NCBI GenBank assembly: GCA_949915775.1 | Contig: CATLEG010000011.1 | Span: forward strand, 1-36,557 | Reading direction: 5' to 3' | DNA length: 36,557 bases | Source of the DNA: an uncultured Candidatus Melainabacteria bacterium | Lineage (GTDB): Bacteria > Cyanobacteriota > Vampirovibrionia > Gastranaerophilales > Gastranaerophilaceae | Part shown: positions 2,965 through 29,030 of the stretch, in pieces | Position numbering within the stretch: the stretch's first letter is position 1 | Layout of the letters: every line of letters starts with the position of its first letter | Notes under the pieces: model-generated | Databases searched by the model: none | Seen by the model: the letters and a program-made list of their open reading frames with translations, nothing else | What the model was told of the DNA's origin: nothing | Made by a program: the position numbers and the translations under genes

Positions 2965-5586
2965 TCATATTAGAAACTCTTTATACTTTTCAACCTGAAA
3001 TTTTAAACATGGAATGTCGTACATTTTTTTTGCAATAAGTTTAGCATTTTCGATTTTGTTCTGTATTTTAAATTCATTTAAAATACTAATAAGAACATCA
3101 ATTTCCTTATGTAAATATTCGACATCTGCAAGTGATGAAATAAAAATAGCTATCAAATTATATACAAGTGCATTATTTTGAGTAACTTTTAAATAACATA
3201 ATATTTTTTCTAAAAATTGTCCAATACTATTGTGTGCAATTAAACTTTTAGGAAAGGCTTGTTGAAGAACTAACTTTAATTCTTCTTGATACGTTTCAAT
3301 CTCATTAATATCGCAATAGCGATTAAATATAGCTAATAATGTACTTACAAAAGCTTTGTTTTTAATTTTCACAATATCAATCCAAAATGTCATAACTTTT
3401 TCTTTAGAATAATTTGGATTTTCTCTATATTTTAAACCATTTAATATATCTTGATAATCTTTGTCAGAAAAATGTTTACTAAATTCTTCAAAAATTTTAT
3501 CTTCATTAAATCTTAATTTTGAATCTAATAACATTCTTACAAATCTTGTTCTTATTTCACCTTCTTTTATTTCATTTTTTTCAAAGGCTTCTAAAATTAA
3601 TGATTTTAAATCTTTAAATTGAGGTATATAACGGAAATAAGAAAGATATCCATTTAAAAAATATTTTTTAGCTTTGTCTTTTAATTGGTGTATCCTTTCC
3701 AACAAATGTAAATCTTTATATTTATAAGACAAGTAATCATATTGCATTCCAAGATAATAATAAAATTCACGGCATCTTTCTTCATTTTCTTTTAAAAGAA
3801 TATATTCTAAGAAATTTTTATCATCATTATTAAGTACTCTGATTTTTGTTAAATGCTCCATATAACATCTAAAATTTCTGCCATGTGTAGTATTTAAAGC
3901 AGTAAAACTTATGTCATATTCATTTTTGTAATAACTTTCATCATAATCACAATAAGCAATTTGCTTTATATATTTGAAAATTTTCTTGAAATATTTGTGT
4001 CTTTTAGTTACAACATTGAAATTAAAATCTATTAATTCATACAATAAACTATAATAATCTTCTTTATTAGAATTTGTTGCAGCCAGTTTCTTATCTATAA
4101 ATAATATTGCTTTATTTAAAGAATTTATATTTTCAACATTTTGTGAAAGAACTTCTATAAAAACTCGTATAAATCCTATTTTATTTAAATTGACAAGATT
4201 ATCGTCTTCTAAATATTTGTTGATATTTTCAGATATTAATTTTTTGAACAAGTCAATAAGCCCACGTTCATTTACTTCTTCTACACTTTCTTTGTCAAAT
4301 TGAACTAAATGATGATTATATTCTCTATCTTGATTTACATATTCAATTTGCTCCTTCACAGATTTCAATCTAAATTCTTCTTCTGATATTGGTGATACAT
4401 TTCTGACCCAGCCGCCTACACCAGACTGCCAATATATTCCAGGATTTTCTTTTTCATATTGATATTTTTCTTTTAATTCATAGAATAGATTCTTAAATTC
4501 TGAATGTTCTTTTAAACCATGTAACACATTATACTTAGTTCTTTCATCTTTCTTTGGAAATTTATCTAAATACACTTTTATATCATCATTTAATGTGTCC
4601 AAATTATCTATTTTGTTAATACTTTTAAATATTTGTACTAACTCATAAAGACATATATCTGTTACCTTAACAATATTTTTTTTATTTATATGTTTAAAAA
4701 ATTCTTTTAATACATCTATATATTTATCTAAATTTTCATAAATAAAATATAAACCTAACTTTCTGAGCATAAAGATTCTTTGCGATAATAATTTCTTTAT
4801 ATTACAAGCAATATCCTTACCTGAATTTAAATTAAGACATAAAAAATATAAAATAATATCTGAAACATCACTACTCGTATAATCATTTACAAAACTCTTG
4901 TTAATTTCTTCCATATCAAATTTTTGATGCCTAAAAACATCTAATATATCATTTAAGTTATCATGTGTTTTTAAATAAACTTTATTATATTTTTCGACCA
5001 AATAATCAAAAAGAAATTCTTGTGATAGAGTATTTTGAATGTTTTCTTTACTAGTTTCGTCATTAATAATTTCGCTCAAATAATAGGTTTCATATATAAC
5101 CTCGCCTCTTTTATCAAAAGAGGTAGATTTTAATTCATATGTTAATAGAGTAGATATTGTTGCCTTTATTAAATCTTCGTATTCTACTATTTGTTCTTTT
5201 TTATATATATTTTTAACTAATTCTATTGCATGTTTATGTTTTAAAATCTTAGTGTAATCAATTTTATTTAAATCTATAATATCAAATCTATCTAATAATT
5301 CTGTTAACTTATAATATGTTGAATAATGAATATCATTAATTTCAATTTCTTTGATATTTTCATTTATTATTTCTATAATAATATCTTTAGTATTGGAATC
5401 ATAAGTGCGTTCTAAATACTGTATAACCCAATAAGATGCATCGTCTGTAAAATTTAATAGTCCTTCTTTTTGAAATGGTACTAAAAACTCTTGTGCGGAA
5501 AGTTCTTTAAAAAATAGACTTTTTTCATTTATATCAGATTTTAAATTATTACACAGTTCTTTTATAGTTATCTTACCCAAAATCAA
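2965..5586 (-). CDS. Large helical partner of the SIR2 protein, unrecognised family
   Basis: The product is 873 aa and almost entirely alpha-helical by composition (Leu/Ile/Lys/Glu/Asn-rich heptads throughout). One non-helical insert lies at about residues 383-410, with the residues I-Y-W-Q-S-G-V-G-G-W-V-R-N-V-S-P. I see no Walker, protease or nuclease motif. The start is TTG 5586 or the third codon TTG at 5580; a GGAGG lies just upstream. The gene overlaps the SIR2 gene by about 14 bp, which implies translational coupling and a two-component system. Known SIR2 defence proteins such as DSR2 fuse the NADase to a long helical sensor region. Here that region may be a separate subunit (inference). 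Confidence 0.7.
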   Translation of the reverse strand: MILGKITIKELCNNLKSDINEKSLFFKELSAQEFLVPFQKEGLLNFTDDASYWVIQYLERTYDSNTKDIIIEIINENIKEIEINDIHYSTYYKLTELLDRFDIIDLNKIDYTKILKHKHAIELVKNIYKKEQIVEYEDLIKATISTLLTYELKSTSFDKRGEVIYETYYLSEIINDETSKENIQNTLSQEFLFDYLVEKYNKVYLKTHDNLNDILDVFRHQKFDMEEINKSFVNDYTSSDVSDIILYFLCLNLNSGKDIACNIKKLLSQRIFMLRKLGLYFIYENLDKYIDVLKEFFKHINKKNIVKVTDICLYELVQIFKSINKIDNLDTLNDDIKVYLDKFPKKDERTKYNVLHGLKEHSEFKNLFYELKEKYQYEKENPGIYWQSGVGGWVRNVSPISEEEFRLKSVKEQIEYVNQDREYNHHLVQFDKESVEEVNERGLIDLFKKLISENINKYLEDDNLVNLNKIGFIRVFIEVLSQNVENINSLNKAILFIDKKLAATNSNKEDYYSLLYELIDFNFNVVTKRHKYFKKIFKYIKQIAYCDYDESYYKNEYDISFTALNTTHGRNFRCYMEHLTKIRVLNNDDKNFLEYILLKENEERCREFYYYLGMQYDYLSYKYKDLHLLERIHQLKDKAKKYFLNGYLSYFRYIPQFKDLKSLILEAFEKNEIKEGEIRTRFVRMLLDSKLRFNEDKIFEEFSKHFSDKDYQDILNGLKYRENPNYSKEKVMTFWIDIVKIKNKAFVSTLLAIFNRYCDINEIETYQEELKLVLQQAFPKSLIAHNSIGQFLEKILCYLKVTQNNALVYNLIAIFISSLADVEYLHKEIDVLISILNEFKIQNKIENAKLIAKKMYDIPCLKFQVEKYKEFLI

Positions 5587-6571
5587 CTTCCTCCGGATTT
5601 GTATACCTTATTAATGCGGGTTTTTCTTTTGAAATATTTAATATTGTTTTAGTTAAATTTTCAATAACTTCTTCAAAGCTTTGTTCGATGCCAGTACTAT
5701 CGGTATCATATACATATGTTTTTATCTTGTGATTACTAGCTATATCAAAATAATTTTTATTAAATTCATTTTCTAAAACTTTCGCTTCGCAATTATCTAC
5801 AATAACACTAATTTGTTTAAAATTTTCTGTATTAGGCTTATTCGCGATTATCTGAAGAATTTCTTCATCACTTAATGAATAACCTAAAAAGATAATATAA
5901 AATTCTTTTAATAAGTCCTTTATAAATTGTTTTTGTCGCTTATATTCATCTGAATTTTCAAGTATGTAAACTCTATTATATTGTTCTTTACTTAGGACTA
6001 AATCCATATAAGATGATTGCTTAAATTCTGAGGAGTCCCCACTAAAACGACCATGAAGATAAATTATTGAATCAAGCAAATTGCTTTGAGAAGGATTTTC
6101 CATATTAATATATGGAATGTAAAAATTTCTGTTTAGACCTTCTTCTTCGGTTTGAAACTTTTCAATCATTACATCATAATTCGTTTGAAGGATTAATACA
6201 GCTTTTTCTTTATATAGTTTATTTAAACAATTATATATTTTACTATCTTTGAAATTTTTTCGAGGGTTTTCGTAAAATAATTCTTTTAATAAATTATTAA
6301 ATTCTTGTTCTTTATTTTTATTTTTTATCTTTTCTGTACAAATACTAATTATCTTTATAGGTTTATTTAAACTTAATAAATTTAGTTTTTCAGAACGAGT
6401 AATAATTTTTTGTTGCAAGCAAAATTTCGTAATACTATTCGCTAATCCTTGCCAATCGGGCATCCCAATATTAAATCCTACACCTGAACCCAAAAACAAG
6501 CACACTCTTTTTGCTTTTATCGCATCTTGAAATTCTACTTCCTTAAATAATGACTTGTAATCTTCTAACAT
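5573..6571 (-). CDS. SIR2-domain NADase-like defence effector
   Basis: The product is 332 aa from ATG 6571. A TTG at 6598 would add nine residues but has no ribosome binding site. The SIR2_2-type fold is visible: a glycine-rich nucleotide loop L-F-L-G-S-G-V-G (residues 25-32), T-N-Y-D with the expected catalytic Asn131, L-H-G-R with His173, and I-F-L-G-Y-S-L-S-D further on. Asn131 and His173 sit close to the positions known in DSR2-type anti-phage sirtuins, which deplete NAD+ when triggered by phage proteins. No membrane segment is seen. The gene is first in a two-gene minus-strand operon and divergent from an AbiF-like gene. A TAAAAT lies 7 nt before the ATG, so the mRNA may be leaderless. 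Confidence 0.8.
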   Translation of the reverse strand: MLEDYKSLFKEVEFQDAIKAKRVCLFLGSGVGFNIGMPDWQGLANSITKFCLQQKIITRSEKLNLLSLNKPIKIISICTEKIKNKNKEQEFNNLLKELFYENPRKNFKDSKIYNCLNKLYKEKAVLILQTNYDVMIEKFQTEEEGLNRNFYIPYINMENPSQSNLLDSIIYLHGRFSGDSSEFKQSSYMDLVLSKEQYNRVYILENSDEYKRQKQFIKDLLKEFYIIFLGYSLSDEEILQIIANKPNTENFKQISVIVDNCEAKVLENEFNKNYFDIASNHKIKTYVYDTDSTGIEQSFEEVIENLTKTILNISKEKPALIRYTNPEEVDFG

Positions 6572-6718
6572 ACAATTTATTTTAATATAAATATACAAAA
6601 TTTTACGATATTTCTAAACAATAAGATGGTTAATATAAAATTACCAATTTCATTGTCAGTTAAAATAGGGGGCAGTAACATTTTCATAAGAATAAATAAC
6701 CATGCCAGCAAACTATGC

Positions 6719-6724
6719 TATAAT
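6719..6724 (+). promoter_or_regulatory. Extended -10 promoter giving a leaderless abi mRNA
   Basis: TGCTATAAT (TATAAT at 6719-6724) lies exactly 6 nt before the ATG at 6731, so transcription should start at or next to the start codon. No good -35 box is visible, which the TGn extension would compensate. The same geometry is found for the prophage paralogue. The rest of the divergent gap 6572-6718 holds the presumed SIR2 promoter and no other gene. Confidence 0.5.
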
Positions 6725-6730
6725 TACCTT

Positions 6731-7390
6731 ATGATAGATATTAAATCTAAAGATGAATTAATTGAGATTATTACACCCGTTAGGCTTGGTGCTTATGGTT
6801 CTAGCGATAATTCTATATTATTAAATGAATATATCTATAATCTTAAACTATCAGAAGCTTTTTATCCGGCTTTGTCATTATTGGAAATCACTCTTAGAAA
6901 TCGGATTTGCAATGCAGTTGAAAAACTTATTAGTAAAGATTGGCTTTTACAAGAACTCAATAAACAAAGTATTTTAGCCGATAAAGAGTATCAAAAACTT
7001 TTAGAATCTGCTAATAAAATTAGAAAAAGTGGAAAGAAAATAACCAATGACAGACTTATATCTGAAATGACTTTAGGTTTTTGGATTCATCTTTGTACAA
7101 AGTCATACAGACCCAAATTATGGGATAAAAAAGGTTTTTTTGAGGCTGTGTTTCCTAACTACACTAATAATGGTGATTTGAGAAAAATTGCACCTATTCA
7201 AAATGATTTGTTAAATATTTTGAGATTAAGAAATAGAATTTTCCACCACGAAATCATTATTAATGGTAATAAAACTCCGGAAGAACAATACCAATTAGTT
7301 TTAAATATGCTACATTTGTTATCGACCGGCATGGAAAGCCTTTTAAATGATATAAGCAGATTTGAAACAATAACAAAGCAAAAACCCTAG
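6731..7390 (+). CDS. AbiF/Abi_2-family HEPN protein (island copy)
   Basis: The product is 219 aa from ATG 6731. An upstream ATG at 6626 would add 35 residues that have no counterpart in the prophage paralogue. Conserved Abi_2 features are Y-P-A-L-S-L-L-E-I-T-L-R-N near residue 50, L-G-F-W-I-H-L-C in the middle, and the HEPN motif R-N-R-I-F-H (Arg167-x4-His172). HEPN proteins of this family are ribonuclease-type abortive-infection toxins. AbiF has been reported to pair with an RNA antitoxin and proposed as an ancestor of Cas13. The stop codon TAG (7388-7390) lies inside the hairpin of a convergent small RNA. It sits beside the SIR2 operon in a defence block. Confidence 0.8.
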   Translation: MIDIKSKDELIEIITPVRLGAYGSSDNSILLNEYIYNLKLSEAFYPALSLLEITLRNRICNAVEKLISKDWLLQELNKQSILADKEYQKLLESANKIRKSGKKITNDRLISEMTLGFWIHLCTKSYRPKLWDKKGFFEAVFPNYTNNGDLRKIAPIQNDLLNILRLRNRIFHHEIIINGNKTPEEQYQLVLNMLHLLSTGMESLLNDISRFETITKQKP

Positions 7391-7426
7391 CGACTCTGCA
7401 AGCAGGACATCAATCTAGGGTTATCC
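7380..7426 (-). ncRNA. Convergent ~47-nt RNA linked to the island abi gene (candidate RNA antitoxin)
   Basis: Read on the minus strand, a predicted start near 7426 leads into stem AACCCTAG (7422-7415), an inner motif TCCTGC-TT-GCAGAG, the matching arm CTAGGGTT (7390-7383) and a U run to 7380. The T tract lies only on this strand, so the hairpin ends a minus-strand RNA rather than the abi mRNA. The prophage abi copy has a homologous RNA at 28014-28064. The outer stem there is AACCTAGG/CCTAGGTT, a set of paired changes that keeps the helix. The overlap with the abi stop codon is the same in both. Confidence 0.7.
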
Positions 7427-7432
7427 AATAAC

Positions 7433-7461
7433 ATTATAAACTATTTTGTATAGTTTTTCAA
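7433..7461 (-). promoter_or_regulatory. Sigma70-type promoter of the island small RNA
   Basis: On the minus strand, TTGAAA (7461-7456), a 17-nt spacer and TATAAT (7438-7433) form a near-consensus promoter directed at the hairpin RNA. The block is conserved at the prophage locus: both share AACACTTGA around the -35 and ATAATGTTA at the -10. Confidence 0.7.
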
Positions 7462-7527
7462 GTGTTATAACTATTTTTTGTTATATTCTATTTACAAAGT
7501 AAAAGAAATATAAGTTCATCTTTTTCT

Positions 7528-8655
7528 CTAACTATTTATATCACTTTTTATAAATTCTTGTAATATTGTATTACCTGTAGTTTCTATTGGTTTTCTTAAA
7601 TTCTCCGCTCTTAAATGAGAATATCTATTAGTCATTACAGGAGTTTTATGCCCTAAAGTTTTCTGGGTTATAAACTGTGAAATTCCATCCATTGCTTGAT
7701 AGCTGGCATGAGTATGTCTTAAATCATGAAATACAAAGTTTTTAATTCCACATTTAGCAACTATTTTAGGAAATACTTTACCTATTAAACGTTCATTTGG
7801 ATTTTCATTGCTATTGACAAATACATAATCATTTTTTAAATGTCTTACTTTATTATTATTTTTAAATTCATAAAGTTCACTATATAACCAATCATGCATA
7901 GGAGTACCTCTATTTGTGCCATTTTTAGTTTCCATAAAATATAACATTTTATGTTCAAAATCAACATTTGCCCAAGTGAGTTTAAGTATTTCACTTTTTC
8001 TTGCTCCGCATAATAATGCGATTAAAGTACATAAATATAATTCCAAACTTGTTTTTTTACATTCCAAAAGCAGTTTGTTAATTTCATCTAGTTCTAAAAA
8101 TCTTGTTCTTTCATTATTTTCCGGAAGTTTTTTTACTTTTTCCATCGGGTTTATATCTATAATATCAAGGTCGATTTTTGCAAAACTAAAAACAACACTA
8201 ATACATTCCAAATATCGATTCACAGTTGCTGGTGATATGGTATTTTGTGTAAATTTTCTTTCATTTTTTATAGTTGGTATTTCTTTAGGTTTTTTTGCTA
8301 ATTTTTCCCTACATTCAACTAAGGTAGCAGAGGTAATGTTTCTAACAAATAATTCACCTATTTCATTTCTAAACCAATTCAATGCTCTAATAAATTCTTT
8401 TTGTGCTTTTTCTTTTTTCTTTGGTAACTCTATTTCTATGAATTTATCAATTAAATTATTCATTGTTAGTTTCTGAAGCTTTCGTTTTGGAAAATTTACA
8501 CCTTCTTTTATTTTTGCTTCTGCACTATTAGCCCAATCTTTTGCATCGGTTTTCCTATCAAATGTTTTAGTTACAGTTCGATGCCCTTTGATTCTAATTA
8601 TAACTGTAAAACTTGTTTTCCCATTTTTCTTTACACGTTCTTGAATAACAGCCAT
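7528..8655 (-). CDS. Tyrosine recombinase (integrase) of the tRNA-Asn island
   Basis: The 375-aa product starts at ATG 8655 with GAGGGAG just upstream. An N-terminal arm/SAM-like DNA-binding region (about 1-175) precedes the catalytic domain. The catalytic set is visible: Arg219 in C-G-A-R-K-S-E, Lys244, His310-x-x-Arg313 in H-D-L-R-H-T-H, His336 in L-G-H-K, and nucleophile Tyr345 in N-R-Y-S-H-L. The length is typical of phage or island integrases. The gene lies about 170 bp from a truncated tRNA-Asn 3' end, the expected arrangement for an element using a tRNA gene as target. It should catalyse integration and, with an excisionase not seen here, excision. Confidence 0.93.
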   Translation of the reverse strand: MAVIQERVKKNGKTSFTVIIRIKGHRTVTKTFDRKTDAKDWANSAEAKIKEGVNFPKRKLQKLTMNNLIDKFIEIELPKKKEKAQKEFIRALNWFRNEIGELFVRNITSATLVECREKLAKKPKEIPTIKNERKFTQNTISPATVNRYLECISVVFSFAKIDLDIIDINPMEKVKKLPENNERTRFLELDEINKLLLECKKTSLELYLCTLIALLCGARKSEILKLTWANVDFEHKMLYFMETKNGTNRGTPMHDWLYSELYEFKNNNKVRHLKNDYVFVNSNENPNERLIGKVFPKIVAKCGIKNFVFHDLRHTHASYQAMDGISQFITQKTLGHKTPVMTNRYSHLRAENLRKPIETTGNTILQEFIKSDINS

Positions 8656-9365: not shown

Positions 9366-11402
9366 ATGGCAGATCCAAAAGACAAATATATAGATATAAA
9401 TTTAGTAGCAAAATTAAAAGGTTACACAACAAACCGCCCTGTTAGACAGGAAATAAATAAAGAAAATTCAAAATACACCGCCCGAAAAGTTAAAGTTCAG
9501 GGCGGTTTTAGTTATGAGATATTATTTTCAACTCTTGAACCCGAAATTCAAGAAAAGATTTTAGATGAAGAAATTAAATCAAAAAGTTTAGTTCCTATTA
9601 ATATAAATAATAATATAGAATCAACTTACGAATTTAAAACAGAAAAATTAAGAGTTGAAGCATTAGCCAAAATTGACCTTATTAAATCATTTGAAAGGTT
9701 TGAATCAAGATATTCAAGCAAAAAACAAGCCGAAGAATTATTTTTAGATTTGTATAATTCCGGAGAATATTTAAAAGATATTTATAAACAATTAGGCAAA
9801 ATTTCAAGATCATCACTATATCGGTGGAGTACAACATATAAAAAATACGGGACTGTTGAAAGTCTGATTCCGAATTATAAATGTTCTGCATTAGGAGAAT
9901 ATAACACAAGTTTAACCCCTGAAATGATAGAACAATTTGAAAAATTTTTATTTCACCCGAACAAATTTAAAATAGCAAAAGCCATAAGTTTATCAAAATA
10001 CTGTTTAGAACAGAAAGGTTTTGAAAATTTACCCGCCGACATAGCATTTAGACGATATGCAGACCATATTAAAAAGGTAAAATATGACAAATGGATTTTA
10101 TTCAGAGAGGGCGAAAAAGCATTTAACGATAAAGTTATGCCTTATATTGAAAGAGATCCAAATTTATTAGATGTCGGAGATGTACTTATAGCAGACGGAC
10201 ATGACCTAAATTTTGAAGTTAAAAACCCATTTACAGGAAATCCAACAAGAGCAACACTTGTTGGATTTTTTGATTGGAGATCAAACGCACTTGTCGGATA
10301 TGAAATAATGATGAGTGAAAGTACTCAATGTATTGCTTCCGCACTTCGTAACTCAATAATAAATTTAGGTAAAATTCCAAAAGTAGTTTACCAAGATAAC
10401 GGCAGAGCTTTTAAGTCAAAATATTTTCAAATAAAAAATTTAGATGAAGCGGGATTTAACGGAGTCTATGCAAATTTAGGCATTGAATCCGTATTTGCAA
10501 AAGTCCGAAACGCACAAGCAAAAGTTATTGAAAGATTTTTCCTAGAATTTCAAGAAGAATTTGAAAAAATGATGCCGTCATATATCGGAACAAGTATTGA
10601 AGATAAACCCGCAAGACTACGCAGAGGAGAAAACTTGCACAAAGCACATTATTTAAAAACAACAGGCGGTACAATTCCGACAGTAGAGCAAGCTATAAAA
10701 TGTATTGATTTTTGGCTTTATAACTATCATTTTAATAAACCAAATCCGCATGATCCAAATATGACGATTAAAGAGAGTTTAAATACTGTTCAAAAAGAAC
10801 ATATTGATATTTCAAAATTAAATTATCTGATGATGAAAACCGAAGCAAAAACAATTCACAGAAACGGCATAAGATTTTTAAATCAAAATTATTATAGCGA
10901 TTCTTTATTCGGACTTAAAGAGCAAGTATATATCCGCTATTCACTTTTTGATTTAACAAAAGTGTTAGTTTACTCATTAAAAGGCGAATTTATATGCACC
11001 GCAAAACGAGTTGAAAAAGTTCACCCAATGGCTAGAGTATTGGGAACTGTCAAAGATATGGAAGATGTTAAACAGAAAATTAAAAAGAAAACCCGACTCA
11101 AAAATAAAGCGGTTAAAGAATTTAAGAAATATTTTGACATTGAAACAACTGGTATTTTAGAAATTACACCCGAAGGGGTAAATGAAAATAAAATTGAAGA
11201 ATTTAAACCACAAAAACAGAAAAAAGAAAAAAAGAAAACGGTTCGTGAACAACAAATGAACAGACCTTATTTTAAAGATAATTTTGAAAAATATGAATGG
11301 TTATTGAAAAACGGTTGCACCTGTCAAGAAGATAGGCAATTTATAAAAGCATTTAAACAAACAGATGAATATAACTTAATTTATGGAGGTACAAATGAAT
11401 AA
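9366..11402 (+). CDS. Mu-type DDE transposase (first module)
   Basis: The product is 678 aa, close to MuA (663 aa). The N-terminal Mu DNA-binding region (about 8-70, with Y-T-A-R-K-V-K-V-Q-G-G) is followed by an HTH region (about 120-165) and an RNase-H-like core. Catalytic residues are Asp277 (A-D-G-H), Asp344 (Q-D-N-G) and Glu389 (V-I-E-R), near MuA D269/D336/E392. A mu-transpos C-terminal barrel and a Lys-rich tail (about 600-640) follow. It should nick and join the element's ends in replicative transposition. It overlaps the ATPase gene by 8 bp. It differs clearly from the second transposase at 13294, so it is not a recent duplicate. Confidence 0.92.
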   Translation: MADPKDKYIDINLVAKLKGYTTNRPVRQEINKENSKYTARKVKVQGGFSYEILFSTLEPEIQEKILDEEIKSKSLVPININNNIESTYEFKTEKLRVEALAKIDLIKSFERFESRYSSKKQAEELFLDLYNSGEYLKDIYKQLGKISRSSLYRWSTTYKKYGTVESLIPNYKCSALGEYNTSLTPEMIEQFEKFLFHPNKFKIAKAISLSKYCLEQKGFENLPADIAFRRYADHIKKVKYDKWILFREGEKAFNDKVMPYIERDPNLLDVGDVLIADGHDLNFEVKNPFTGNPTRATLVGFFDWRSNALVGYEIMMSESTQCIASALRNSIINLGKIPKVVYQDNGRAFKSKYFQIKNLDEAGFNGVYANLGIESVFAKVRNAQAKVIERFFLEFQEEFEKMMPSYIGTSIEDKPARLRRGENLHKAHYLKTTGGTIPTVEQAIKCIDFWLYNYHFNKPNPHDPNMTIKESLNTVQKEHIDISKLNYLMMKTEAKTIHRNGIRFLNQNYYSDSLFGLKEQVYIRYSLFDLTKVLVYSLKGEFICTAKRVEKVHPMARVLGTVKDMEDVKQKIKKKTRLKNKAVKEFKKYFDIETTGILEITPEGVNENKIEEFKPQKQKKEKKKTVREQQMNRPYFKDNFEKYEWLLKNGCTCQEDRQFIKAFKQTDEYNLIYGGTNE

Positions 11403-26444: not shown

Positions 26445-26941
26445 TACATTGTACTCGTGGTTTTTTGGTTTTTATCGGGGTGGGTATGCAAATTATATGT
26501 ATCTCTCATACTGTGCATTGAAGATTTTTTGTCGGTTATATCGGCATTTGATTTTATGCCGTTTGTATTTGTCAAAATTCCCTCGTGTGTTATATCTCCG
26601 ACAAGTTTTATATTTTGAAAAACGACTGTTAAGGTGTCGGTTTCTTTGTCTGCGTTAATTTGCGATCCATTTTCAAGATTTACGGATAATTGTTTTTCAT
26701 TTGTTACGGCGGGTTTATCTTCATTTGAATAAATTGCACCTAAAATAACACCGTCTTCTGAATTTTGATCCATAAGACAAACAACTTGCTCGTTAATATC
26801 CGGCATGGAATAAAATTTGTCTTTTAGTGTTTTTGTCTGTAAAACAGGCAACCAGTAAGAAGTAGAATCATCATCACCAAAATTTACTCTTGCTTGGCAT
26901 AAAAGCGGGTTTATTTGTGAAACAATACCAAATCTTAACAT
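26444..26941 (-). CDS. Baseplate spike protein gpV
   Basis: The product is 165 aa. An N-terminal OB-like region (V-S-Q-I-N-P-L-L-C-Q-A-R-V-N-F, then V-V-C-L-M-D) is followed by a beta-helical stalk (about 85-140) and an H-T-H-P motif near the C-terminus (about 151-154). In P2 and Mu spikes the H-x-H of three chains binds iron at the tip that pierces the outer membrane. It overlaps gpD by 7 bp. Confidence 0.9.
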   Translation of the reverse strand: MLRFGIVSQINPLLCQARVNFGDDDSTSYWLPVLQTKTLKDKFYSMPDINEQVVCLMDQNSEDGVILGAIYSNEDKPAVTNEKQLSVNLENGSQINADKETDTLTVVFQNIKLVGDITHEGILTNTNGIKSNADITDKKSSMHSMRDTYNLHTHPDKNQKTTSTM

Positions 26942-27903
26942 GTTTCAACCTCGCAAATCGTTTTATATCCGCTTGTTCTGTCTATGATATGGCGGACTTT
27001 TTTAAGATGATATTTCCCCGAAAAATGACCGATTCCTTTTAGTTCAATATTTAAACCCGCAACAATATATGGATTTCCGACCATTTCTATTGAACCCTCA
27101 ATTTTTGTATCAGCAGTATTAAGAGCCGCATTTGCTTTTAATATGGCTTGTTTCCTATCTGAACAACGAACATTTATTTTTAAAGTATCGCCCTTTGCAA
27201 CATCTTCATTTCGTGCAGTTGCTTTTACGGTTTTCTTTTTCTTTGGATCATAATAAGAAACTTGCACCGATTTATATTTTTGGCTTGTTTTTTCACGCAA
27301 GTTTATTTGTGTTAAATCGGATTTATAAAAGATTTGGGTTGATTTTGCACCTTTTAACTTTTGCACATCATAGAAAACAAGATTATTTTCAGCAATTTTA
27401 AATATATATCCGTATTGTTCTGCAAGTTTTGTTAAAAATGACAAATCTCTTTCTTTATTTTGGGTAATTCTATCAACCCTGACATCTTCAATTTCACCGA
27501 CTAATGTGTAACCGTGTTTGTCGGCTACTTCTTTTGCTATTTGTTTTAAGGTTTTATTTTCATATCCAACGGAATTTTTTTGTCTTAAAGGTTTTTTAAT
27601 TCCTGTTGCTAAACCTTTAATTGAAATTGTATCGGGCGGGGTTTCATATTCAAGTTCATCAATTTCAAAAGTTCCGCAATTTAAGAGTTTATCTGTATCA
27701 TAACCTATATAACATCTTAAACTATCACCCTTTGACGGAATCCACGCCCCCTGCCAAAGTTTTTCAGAGTCCTCAAAATTTATCTGCAATTCGTCAGACT
27801 CTCCATGTTCAACATCTGTGTATTCAATAGAGGTTACATATTGAGAAACATCATTTGTAATATTCTTTTGTTCGTAAAATAGTTCAAATATTGGTTTTAG
27901 CAT
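26935..27903 (-). CDS. Baseplate hub protein gpD (late control D family)
   Basis: The product is 322 aa and matches the P2 gpD/VgrG-like hub: S-I-E-Y-T-D-V-E-H-G-E-S-D-E-L-Q-I near residue 26, then K-S-V-G-Y-E-N-K-T-L-K-Q-I-A, L-S-F-L-T-K-L-A-E-Q-Y-G-Y, and a C-terminal G-K-Y-H-L-K-K-V-R-H-I. It connects tube and spike. In P2 this gene follows U and X directly. Here an abi gene and its RNA are inserted between gpX and gpD. Confidence 0.9.
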   Translation of the reverse strand: MLKPIFELFYEQKNITNDVSQYVTSIEYTDVEHGESDELQINFEDSEKLWQGAWIPSKGDSLRCYIGYDTDKLLNCGTFEIDELEYETPPDTISIKGLATGIKKPLRQKNSVGYENKTLKQIAKEVADKHGYTLVGEIEDVRVDRITQNKERDLSFLTKLAEQYGYIFKIAENNLVFYDVQKLKGAKSTQIFYKSDLTQINLREKTSQKYKSVQVSYYDPKKKKTVKATARNEDVAKGDTLKINVRCSDRKQAILKANAALNTADTKIEGSIEMVGNPYIVAGLNIELKGIGHFSGKYHLKKVRHIIDRTSGYKTICEVETC

Positions 27904-27978
27904 TTATTTAATCTTTCAATTTTTGATTAAATAATTACCGCAAAACCTATCTATAACTTAATAAATGTTAGCAAACAC

Positions 27979-28007
27979 TTGACAAAAACTGCGTTATAGT
28001 GAATAAT
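27979..28007 (+). promoter_or_regulatory. Sigma70-type promoter of the prophage small RNA
   Basis: TTGACA (27979-27984, a perfect -35), a 17-nt spacer and AATAAT (28002-28007) point at the hairpin RNA, against the late operon. The region matches the island copy: AACACTTGA at the -35 and AATAATGTTA at the -10. Confidence 0.75.
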
Positions 28008-28013
28008 GTTAGT

Positions 28014-28064
28014 GTACAACCTAGGAAGTTCTCCCTGCATTAGCATAGAAGCCTAGGTTTTTTT
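28014..28064 (+). ncRNA. Convergent ~51-nt RNA linked to the prophage abi gene (candidate RNA antitoxin)
   Basis: From a predicted start near 28014 the RNA has outer stem AACCTAGG (28018-28025) / CCTAGGTT (28052-28059). An inner stem is TTCT/AGAA with TGC-ATTA-GCA on top, and seven T's end at 28064. The T run is on this strand only. The abi stop codon (TAG on the minus strand, 28055-28053) lies in the 3' arm, as in the island copy at 7380-7426. The inner motif TCC-(C)TGC-TT-GCA-AG is shared. Confidence 0.72.
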
Positions 28065-28748
28065 GTTGCCTATATTAAGATCTTTTATTAACTTATTGTA
28101 TATATCTAAAAATGTCGAGGTCTTTTTTAGAATTTCTAAATCATCATTAGGTAGATATGAAAGCATTTCTAAAATATCATTATACAGACTTAGTGTTCTT
28201 GACGGGTATTTAAAGATCTTTTCGTAATGGAAAACCCTATTTCTAAATCTTCTTATGGTGTATAATTTCTTTGCGATATATTTTATAGAATGTTTATGCG
28301 GATAATTTACAAACACACCATAAAAGCATTTAGGTTTATTCCAAATCTTTGAATTATATTTTTTTACACATAGATTTGTCCAAAAACCAAAGTTAAGATT
28401 AGCAACAACTTTTCCTATTGTAAAATCTTTTTTTTCGGCAATACATTCATCTTTTGTTGTATTATATGCCTTTACTAATGCCGTATATTCGCTTGGGTCT
28501 AACCATACATTATTATTTATTTCATCTTCTATCCAAGTATTTGAAATATATTGTTTTAAAATACTGTCAATAGAATTTCGTAAAATGACTTCTAATGTGC
28601 ATAATTCGGGATAGATAGCCTGCGAAATTTGAATGTTATTACTGTAATTTTTAATAACATCTTGCATTGTATCTGTTTCACAATAGGCATAAGCAGAAAG
28701 TCTTTCAGCACTATATGTAGAATTGTATTTATTCATGCTATCAGTCAT
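28053..28748 (-). CDS. AbiF/Abi_2-family HEPN protein (prophage moron)
   Basis: The product is 231 aa. It shares its layout with the island protein at 6731: Y-P-E-L-C-T-L-E-V-I-L-R-N (about 46-58), L-N-F-G-F-W-T-N-L-C (about 118-127), F-Y-G-V-F-V-N-Y, and R-N-R-V-F-H (HEPN Arg169-x4-His174). Only perhaps a quarter to a third of residues agree by eye. The family acts as abortive-infection RNases, and AbiF is reported to have an RNA antitoxin. The gene is cargo between the tail genes gpX and gpD, on the late strand but with its own promoter. It may exclude other phages while the prophage is resident (inference). Confidence 0.82.
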   Translation of the reverse strand: MTDSMNKYNSTYSAERLSAYAYCETDTMQDVIKNYSNNIQISQAIYPELCTLEVILRNSIDSILKQYISNTWIEDEINNNVWLDPSEYTALVKAYNTTKDECIAEKKDFTIGKVVANLNFGFWTNLCVKKYNSKIWNKPKCFYGVFVNYPHKHSIKYIAKKLYTIRRFRNRVFHYEKIFKYPSRTLSLYNDILEMLSYLPNDDLEILKKTSTFLDIYNKLIKDLNIGNKKT

Positions 28749-28754
28749 AACACA

Positions 28755-28760
28755 ATTTTA
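28755..28760 (-). promoter_or_regulatory. -10 box 6 nt before the prophage abi start (leaderless)
   Basis: On the minus strand TAAAAT (28760-28755) lies 6 nt before ATG 28748, with TTACCA (28782-28777) as a possible -35. No Shine-Dalgarno sequence is present. The distance equals that of the island copy, which argues for a shared leaderless design. Confidence 0.45.
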
Positions 28761-28814
28761 CTACAAATAAGTCTTTTGGTAATTATTTAATTTTCAAGGT
28801 ACAAATTTTATTTT

Positions 28815-29030
28815 TTATTTTTTCCAAGGGGGTAATTCAAATTTGATAGTTTTACTTTCTTCTAATATCGGGATTTTAAGTTTTATTCCCGCCTGTAATG
28901 TCGGGGTAATTGGTACATTTGGATTTGCTTTTATAATTTCTTCGTAATTTGTAGGTGTTTTGTAATACTTGTATGAAATAAGATCCCAACGGTCATTGTC
29001 CTTTGTAATGTAGGTATAATATTCCGTCAT
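28815..29030 (-). CDS. Tail protein gpX (LysM-like)
   Basis: The product is 71 aa. It fits P2 gpX: an early Y-Y-T-Y-I-T-K-D-N-D-R-W-D-L-I-S-Y-K-Y-Y, then I-I-K-A-N-P-N-V and a final L-Q-A-G-I-K-L-K-I-P, the LysM-like pattern with W-D near the start. It probably sits in the tail hub or tube tip. It overlaps gpU by 4 bp (ATGA). Confidence 0.88.
   Translation of the reverse strand: MTEYYTYITKDNDRWDLISYKYYKTPTNYEEIIKANPNVPITPTLQAGIKLKIPILEESKTIKFELPPWKK

Follow-up and report, generated by a model that had tools for sequence, protein, structure and literature searches.

Short RNAs neutralise AbiF toxins through protein binding (PMC12373285, PMC12737573), which raises the question of whether a structured RNA that converges on a HEPN gene from the opposite strand could serve the same purpose. 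Such an arrangement was found in a 36,557-nt stretch of DNA from an uncultured Candidatus Melainabacteria bacterium (hereafter, the window), where a first-pass annotation, made from the letters alone, had inferred an antitoxin or regulatory role of the RNA towards the HEPN protein. To answer this question, the protein, the RNA, and the pairing of the two were compared across related genomes and more distant phyla. Features of the locus and of a second, paralogous locus in the window are collected in Table 1.

Table 1. Positions of the features at the two HEPN loci, in coordinates of the window
Feature	Position	Strand	Remarks
Extended -10 promoter (TGCTATAAT) of gene A	6716..6724	+	Ends 6 nt before ATG; predicted leaderless mRNA
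Gene A, 219-aa HEPN protein, AbiF fold (modelled)	6731..7390	+	R167-N168-x3-H172
RNA A, structured, about 49 nt	7378..7426	-	Convergent to gene A; placed by RNA model
Promoter of RNA A	7433..7461	-	TTGAAA (7461-7456), 17-nt spacer, TATAAT (7438-7433); 11/12 matches
Promoter of RNA B	27979..28007	+	TTGACA (27979-27984), 17-nt spacer, AATAAT (28002-28007)
RNA B, structured	28014..28064	+	Convergent to gene B; overlaps its TAG stop
Gene B, 231-aa HEPN paralogue	28053..28748	-	Inside Mu-like prophage, tail genes on either side
-10 box (TAAAAT) of gene B	28755..28760	-	6 nt before ATG

Family membership and fold of the HEPN proteins

The predicted products of gene A and gene B are 32% identical. 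Gene A had been described as encoding an Abi_2 protein with a HEPN R-x4-H motif, and the motif held: R167, N168 and H172 were invariant in an alignment of 70 homologues, in which E52, R56 and N57 were also kept. The Abi_2 label did not, with Pfam Abi_2 (PF07751) scores of 15.6 bits for gene A and 17.6 bits for gene B, both below the curated cut-off of 25.6; across the family, Abi_2 was matched at E 0.1 or better in 10 of 11 members, the best value being 5e-7. The assignment to AbiF was therefore based upon fold and PADLOC in place of the sub-threshold Pfam match. The PADLOC profile PD-T4-5 matched gene A at E 1.9e-11 and gene B at 6.4e-13, over best stretches that are partial and in a library without a cut-off, and was the top PADLOC match for both window proteins and for all 26 scanned relatives from other loci.

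The AlphaFold model of the gene A product had a pLDDT of 94.6. A Foldseek search of the PDB placed chain A of 8VZ6, PbAbiF bound to its ncRNA, at the top with a probability of 1.00, all others reaching 0.23 at most. The two structures aligned over 197 residues with a Z score of 12.1 and an rmsd of 3.5, followed by matches at Z 6.1 and 5.7, both to HEPN proteins of the Csm6 family. A BFVD fold search returned no credible match. Since 8VZ6 was the one convincing PDB match, gene A is, according to its structural model, an AbiF-fold protein although Abi_2 sequence membership fails.

In 31 of 33 convergent loci, the toxin gene has no clear ribosome-binding site, and a -10 box with at least 5/6 matches, of the extended type, is present 4-9 nt (nearly always 6 nt) before its ATG. 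The box was present in 16% of shuffles, and the figure for the loci is an upper bound because the ATG was picked among candidates by this same box, although that choice does not by itself account for the constant 6-nt gap. This arrangement predicts a weakly translated, leaderless toxin mRNA beside a strong RNA promoter.

Gene B is cargo of the Mu-like prophage, flanked by tail X and baseplate hub genes (26935-29030), and close relatives of it, convergent RNA included, were observed on four IMG/VR contigs (L130-L133). A homologue that shares 83% identity with gene A, accompanied by the same RNA, is present on a contig titled as a Fusobacterium sp. MAG (L021), probably through mis-binning of the contig or a recent transfer. 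Next to gene A, a SIR2-like gene (5573-6598, minus strand; Dsr1/ThsA-like according to PADLOC) is directly followed by an 873-aa gene (2965-5586, minus strand) for which no family match was found; this pair (2965-6598) is a possible two-gene defence system.

A structured RNA opposite the 3' end of each HEPN gene

Both elements that had been reported opposite gene A, a TTGAAA-N17-TATAAT promoter and a short hairpin RNA that takes in the gene's TAG stop codon and terminates in a U run, were recovered at the positions given in Table 1, as was the twin RNA at gene B with its own promoter and stop-codon overlap. The 3' end of gene A reads ...AAAAACCCTAG, and the 3' stem arm and U run (7384-7380) of RNA A, the hairpin of which ends in TTTTTGC, extend over the final codons of the gene and its TAG stop (7388-7390). 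The lone fold of the 7380-7426 hairpin is unexceptional (z -1.73, with 16 of 200 shuffles folding equally well), and a simple terminator scan did not report it, so the case for the RNA rests on comparison.

Conservation, covariation and distribution of the type 1 RNA

Two covariance models were built, one per RNA type (R1 and R2), because a joint MAFFT alignment misaligned both types. The check that the first-pass annotation had suggested, a model made from the window hairpins and searched beside abi genes, was carried out with R1, for which homologous loci were added, and gave the outcome that the annotation predicted, homologous hairpins beside related genes. Across 11 homologous loci the type 1 hairpin comprises an 8-pair outer stem, a middle stem, an asymmetric internal loop (usually UCC facing a single base), an inner stem-loop, and a U run. 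Changes on both sides were observed in 11 of 14 pairs, and pairing was 91.9% compared with 77.8% in shuffles and 50% or less when the structure was slid along the alignment. R1 describes a covarying three-helix hairpin at a fixed distance from a promoter.

Within the genome of the window, R1 matched nothing but the two window copies, at E 2e-11 and 6e-12; each of them had been part of the training set. Among 383 genomes of the order, the host clade being Candidatus Gastranaerophilales according to named matches, 65 matches were obtained at E 0.01 or better against about 4 expected. A HEPN match adjoined 45 of these, always on the opposite strand (45/45), and 34 of the 45 were outside the training set. 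Viewed from the protein side, the same genomes contained 45 full-length HEPN matches, one of which is cut by a contig end, and the RNA lay within 150 nt of 43 of the 44 testable homologues. In the exception (L020, in genome G292) the C-terminus of the protein is altered, and the RNA lies 2.9 kb further along. Lower-scoring, true Abi_2-like matches in the 383 genomes had no R1 RNA alongside.

The geometry of the type 1 pairs is nearly uniform, with 42 adjacent pairs convergent and divergent cases confined to one genome (G075, twice) and a fragment in another (G069). Stop-codon overlap was seen at 30 of the 38 convergent loci, and at most convergent loci the RNA covers the final 12-16 nt of the coding sequence; in some loci it starts 11-77 nt beyond the toxin stop; stop-codon sharing is common, not essential. 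A promoter with at least 10/12 matches precedes the RNA at 38 of the 39 distinct type 1 loci, a score reached by 2.4% of shuffles; the spacing was 17 in 32 loci, and the -10 box nearly always ended 6 nt before the motif.

Further RNA types in distant relatives

A second RNA type, with the core CCUCUCCC-[stem]-GGUGAUGA, was found on the opposite strand upstream of the HEPN gene, in divergent orientation, in Bacteroidota, Spirochaetota, Pseudomonadota, Thermodesulfobacteriota, Chloroflexota, Planctomycetota, Cyanobacteriota and Actinomycetota. In its alignment (A8), 9 of 15 pairs had changes on both sides. Two Bacteriovoracaceae loci (L096 and L099) have a type 2 RNA in convergent orientation, and four Bacteroidota loci (L086, L089, L092 and L097) have a TAnnTTTG box, the promoter consensus of this phylum, at the promoter position. 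R1 weakly detected ten type 2 or related RNAs, at the same place and on the same strand. Within the cyanobacterial/melainabacterial phylum, R2 gave a single match, which had no HEPN neighbour.

A third hairpin occupies the divergent slot at plasmid genes of E. coli, P. aeruginosa, Zymomonas, Moraxella and perhaps Acinetobacter, with 2 pairs showing changes on both sides in an alignment of four sequences only. The RNA type tracks the protein clade, and the convergent state requires two changes on the unrooted tree. Some relatives (L070, L074, L153 and L166) are without a modelled RNA.

Several other arrangements were observed. On a plasmid of Vampirovibrio chlorellavorus, the HEPN gene is preceded by a tandem pair of RNA motifs (L052:2827-2956), comparable to the double motif of RCd22. 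Additional divergent hairpins lie upstream of PD-T4-5-like genes at L158, L163, L154 and L082, suggesting still further RNA types; a AGGCCCCACUG..CAUGCGCC hairpin is common to L158 and L163. An exact-core pattern seen in viral contigs was judged mostly chance upon an R2 scan of the 80 listed loci and L341, which gave 8 matches, 7 of them viral and three of these 7 beside a HEPN gene. A permissive Rfam scan of ten distant loci returned only chance miRNA- or snoRNA-like matches.

RNA copies without a toxin gene

No HEPN match adjoined 20 of the 65 R1 matches, two of which have a truncated HEPN gene at a contig end, and the RNA can thus persist alone. About 18 type 1 RNAs are without a HEPN neighbour (L196, L197, L199, L200, L202 and others), several with intact promoters; among neighbours named by eye are an apparent restriction specificity gene (L200) and a KAP-like ATPase (L198). 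In a single case (L216, G065:C101:22000-41000), a tandem pair of RNA motifs with no HEPN gene (about 9845-9952) is located between cas6 and cas1 in a type I-B CRISPR-Cas operon, the array of which has 13 repeats; this position recalls CreTA-like RNAs. A well-conserved type 2 RNA is also found on a 56-kb phage contig with no HEPN gene (L224:7643-7705, minus strand), where it is a possible counter-defence antidote.

We put forward tentatively, and with some doubt, a broader reading: that these RNAs are the undescribed opposite-strand cognate antitoxins of the PD-T4-5 branch and have spread toxin-free, and that toxin-free copies with intact promoters, among them the one on the 56-kb phage contig and the tandem one in the cas operon, would serve as antidotes, whether for counter-defence by phages or for anti-addiction, or would link an RNA-controlled toxin to a cas locus.

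Proposed function and alternative explanations

The pairing at 43 of 44 homologues, the covariation, the conserved promoter and the PbAbiF fold together support the idea of the first-pass annotation that the RNA serves the HEPN protein, in the form of a dedicated RNA-protein pair. We consider it likely that the locus encodes a HEPN RNase toxin of the AbiF fold and an opposite-strand structured RNA that acts as a type III-like antitoxin by binding the HEPN dimer. Furthermore, because the same pairing recurs across many bacterial phyla, the RNA is probably the missing antidote of this AbiF-like toxin family, as judged from sequence comparison.

Weighing against this reading are the unremarkable single-sequence fold of RNA A, the R1 copies with no HEPN neighbour, the relatives that have no modelled RNA, and the partial match to the PD-T4-5 profile. 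For this two-gene module, the protein fold, the conservation and covariation of the RNA, its promoter and U run, and the constant opposite-strand pairing were established computationally; transcription, binding, inhibition and triggering are inferred steps. The short structured RNA would be made abundantly from its own strong opposite-strand promoter. It would bind the HEPN dimer through the conserved pyrimidine-rich asymmetric internal loop and mask the R-x4-H active site in the way known from PbAbiF and its RNA, which would amount to type III-like neutralisation, while the toxin would be weakly expressed from its extended -10 promoter as a leaderless mRNA. Phage infection could then stop transcription or destroy the RNA, freeing a toxin that would cut RNA and halt growth (abortive infection). 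In the convergent form, toxin read-through past the stop would be antisense to the RNA and could deplete it as well.

The overlap with the gene end also allows for a type I-like antisense role, in which the RNA would anneal to the toxin mRNA at its 3' end and make this mRNA less stable or less well translated. Read-through toxin mRNA would be fully complementary to the RNA, the last 12-16 nt of the coding sequence and the stop codon are covered at most convergent loci, and a 3'-overlapping antisense antitoxin has a precedent in yonT/SR6 (PMC5848175). We nevertheless regard this role as unlikely, since covarying stems and an internal loop that pairing in cis does not need are conserved across phyla, the RNA begins beyond the stop in some loci and lies upstream of the gene in other phyla, and the toxin mRNA of the convergent group is predicted to be leaderless and thus has no 5' leader to block. 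A trans-acting protein ligand was favoured over antisense because the structure persists whether the RNA is at the 5' or the 3' side. Slightly less credible still is that the RNA is a guide-like cofactor or sensor that activates the HEPN protein. Cas13, the proposed descendant of AbiF, does use its own RNA for activation (PMC12737573), and RNA types that follow protein clades fit activation as they would any RNA-protein pair; however, the RNA is about 50 nt long without a spacer-like variable segment, and both characterised AbiF RNAs are inhibitory (PMC12373285, PMC12737573).

A hairpin with a U run at the end of convergent genes could also be a mere terminator or transcription roadblock with no function in trans, which we think very improbable. 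The U run lies on the RNA strand only, as the first-pass annotation had pointed out, and a near-consensus promoter directly precedes the hairpin in 38 of 39 distinct loci, so that hardly anything beyond the hairpin would be transcribed. The internal loop shows conservation, and in relatives the RNA is found on the upstream side of its gene. Bidirectional termination and plain antisense control were both ranked below the type III-like antitoxin. That the pairing itself arose by chance or from the alignment deserves almost no credence: training-set loci were read by eye and model E-values are rough, but this reading was refuted by the slid structure, which drops pairing from 92% to 50% or less, by the 65 matches, with 34 adjacent loci outside the training set, and by the opposite-strand placement at all 45.

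Significance

CRISPR-Cas13 is proposed to have arisen from AbiF and its RNA. A sizeable sister branch of AbiF, the PD-T4-5 type, often annotated as 'Abi family protein' or 'hypothetical', is known as single-gene toxins without an antidote, and the opposite-strand RNAs, present in at least nine phyla, offer this branch a testable partner. The RNA position is not fixed to an upstream leader, and both flanks and both strands should be taken in when such genes are annotated or cloned. The pairs also provide independent RNA-HEPN combinations for asking how an inhibitory RNA could turn into a guide.

Comparison with known systems

What is known already is the logic of an AbiF-type toxin with an RNA antitoxin; what appears new here is an RNA without an Rfam match, the motif and geometry of which are unlike RF03085. 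No Rfam family matched the window at gathering thresholds or positions 6500-7600 at E 5 or better, and the RF03085 model itself had no match in the window, in 6500-7600 (E 5 or better) or in the own genome. As the control genomes gave no match, phiC2 was taken as the positive control for RF03085, and was matched. Compared with the AbiF systems (RCd22-AbiF_Cd of C. difficile and PbAbiF-AbiFr, 8VZ6), the loci share a HEPN dimer fold with R-x4-H, a small hairpin RNA by the toxin gene, an asymmetric internal loop, and carriage on phages and islands. The reported abiF RNA (RF03085, e.g. RCd22) lies upstream on the toxin strand and is co-transcribed with the gene (PMC12373285), and the convergent geometry therefore differs from it; the RNA described here has its own promoter and is encoded opposite to the gene at all 45 adjacent loci. 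RF03085 has the form CCCGCC-A-AGC..GCU-CAAAUC-GGCGGG with a long bulge on the 3' side, whereas the long loop side is 5' here (UCC or CUCUC); the PbAbiF RNA inhibits via bulge nucleotides (PMC12737573). In a search of mainly open-access journal literature, no divergent or opposite-strand AbiF RNA was found; the AbiF covariance models by Zilberzwige-Tal et al. mentioned in PMC12804078 could already cover part of the RNAs described here.

PD-T4-5 (Vassallo et al. 2022) is described as a single-gene, TA-like abortive-infection system distantly related to AbiF/D, and the passages of PMC9519451 that were consulted name no antitoxin or RNA partner; an E. coli plasmid relative (L160) has the third hairpin type in the divergent slot. 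The AbiD/AbiF gene of the same genome as the window (L001, G000:C15) likewise combines a HEPN abortive-infection protein with a short promoter-hairpin-terminator element. It differs in encoding a true Abi_2 protein (136 bits) and in the canonical placing of its leader, ahead of the gene and on the gene's own strand. This leader, at the AbiD locus L001:1290-2394, matched neither R1 nor RF03085 and is possibly another unmodelled AbiF-type RNA.

The type III systems ToxIN, CptIN and TenpIN have a tandem-repeat RNA array upstream on the toxin strand and a toxin that is not a HEPN protein. An RNA antitoxin bound to an RNase toxin would, by analogy, follow the same logic, and the RNA gene is adjacent to the toxin gene here as well (43 of 44 testable full-length homologues), but it usually encodes just one hairpin, which has a promoter to itself and lies on the opposite strand, with tandem pairs in L052 and L208. 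In the type I system yonT/SR6, the antitoxin RNA overlaps the 3' end of the toxin gene and acts by antisense pairing (PMC5848175); the overlap at the toxin 3' end is shared with the loci described here, which differ in the conserved structure and loop of their RNA and in its presence at either end of the gene.
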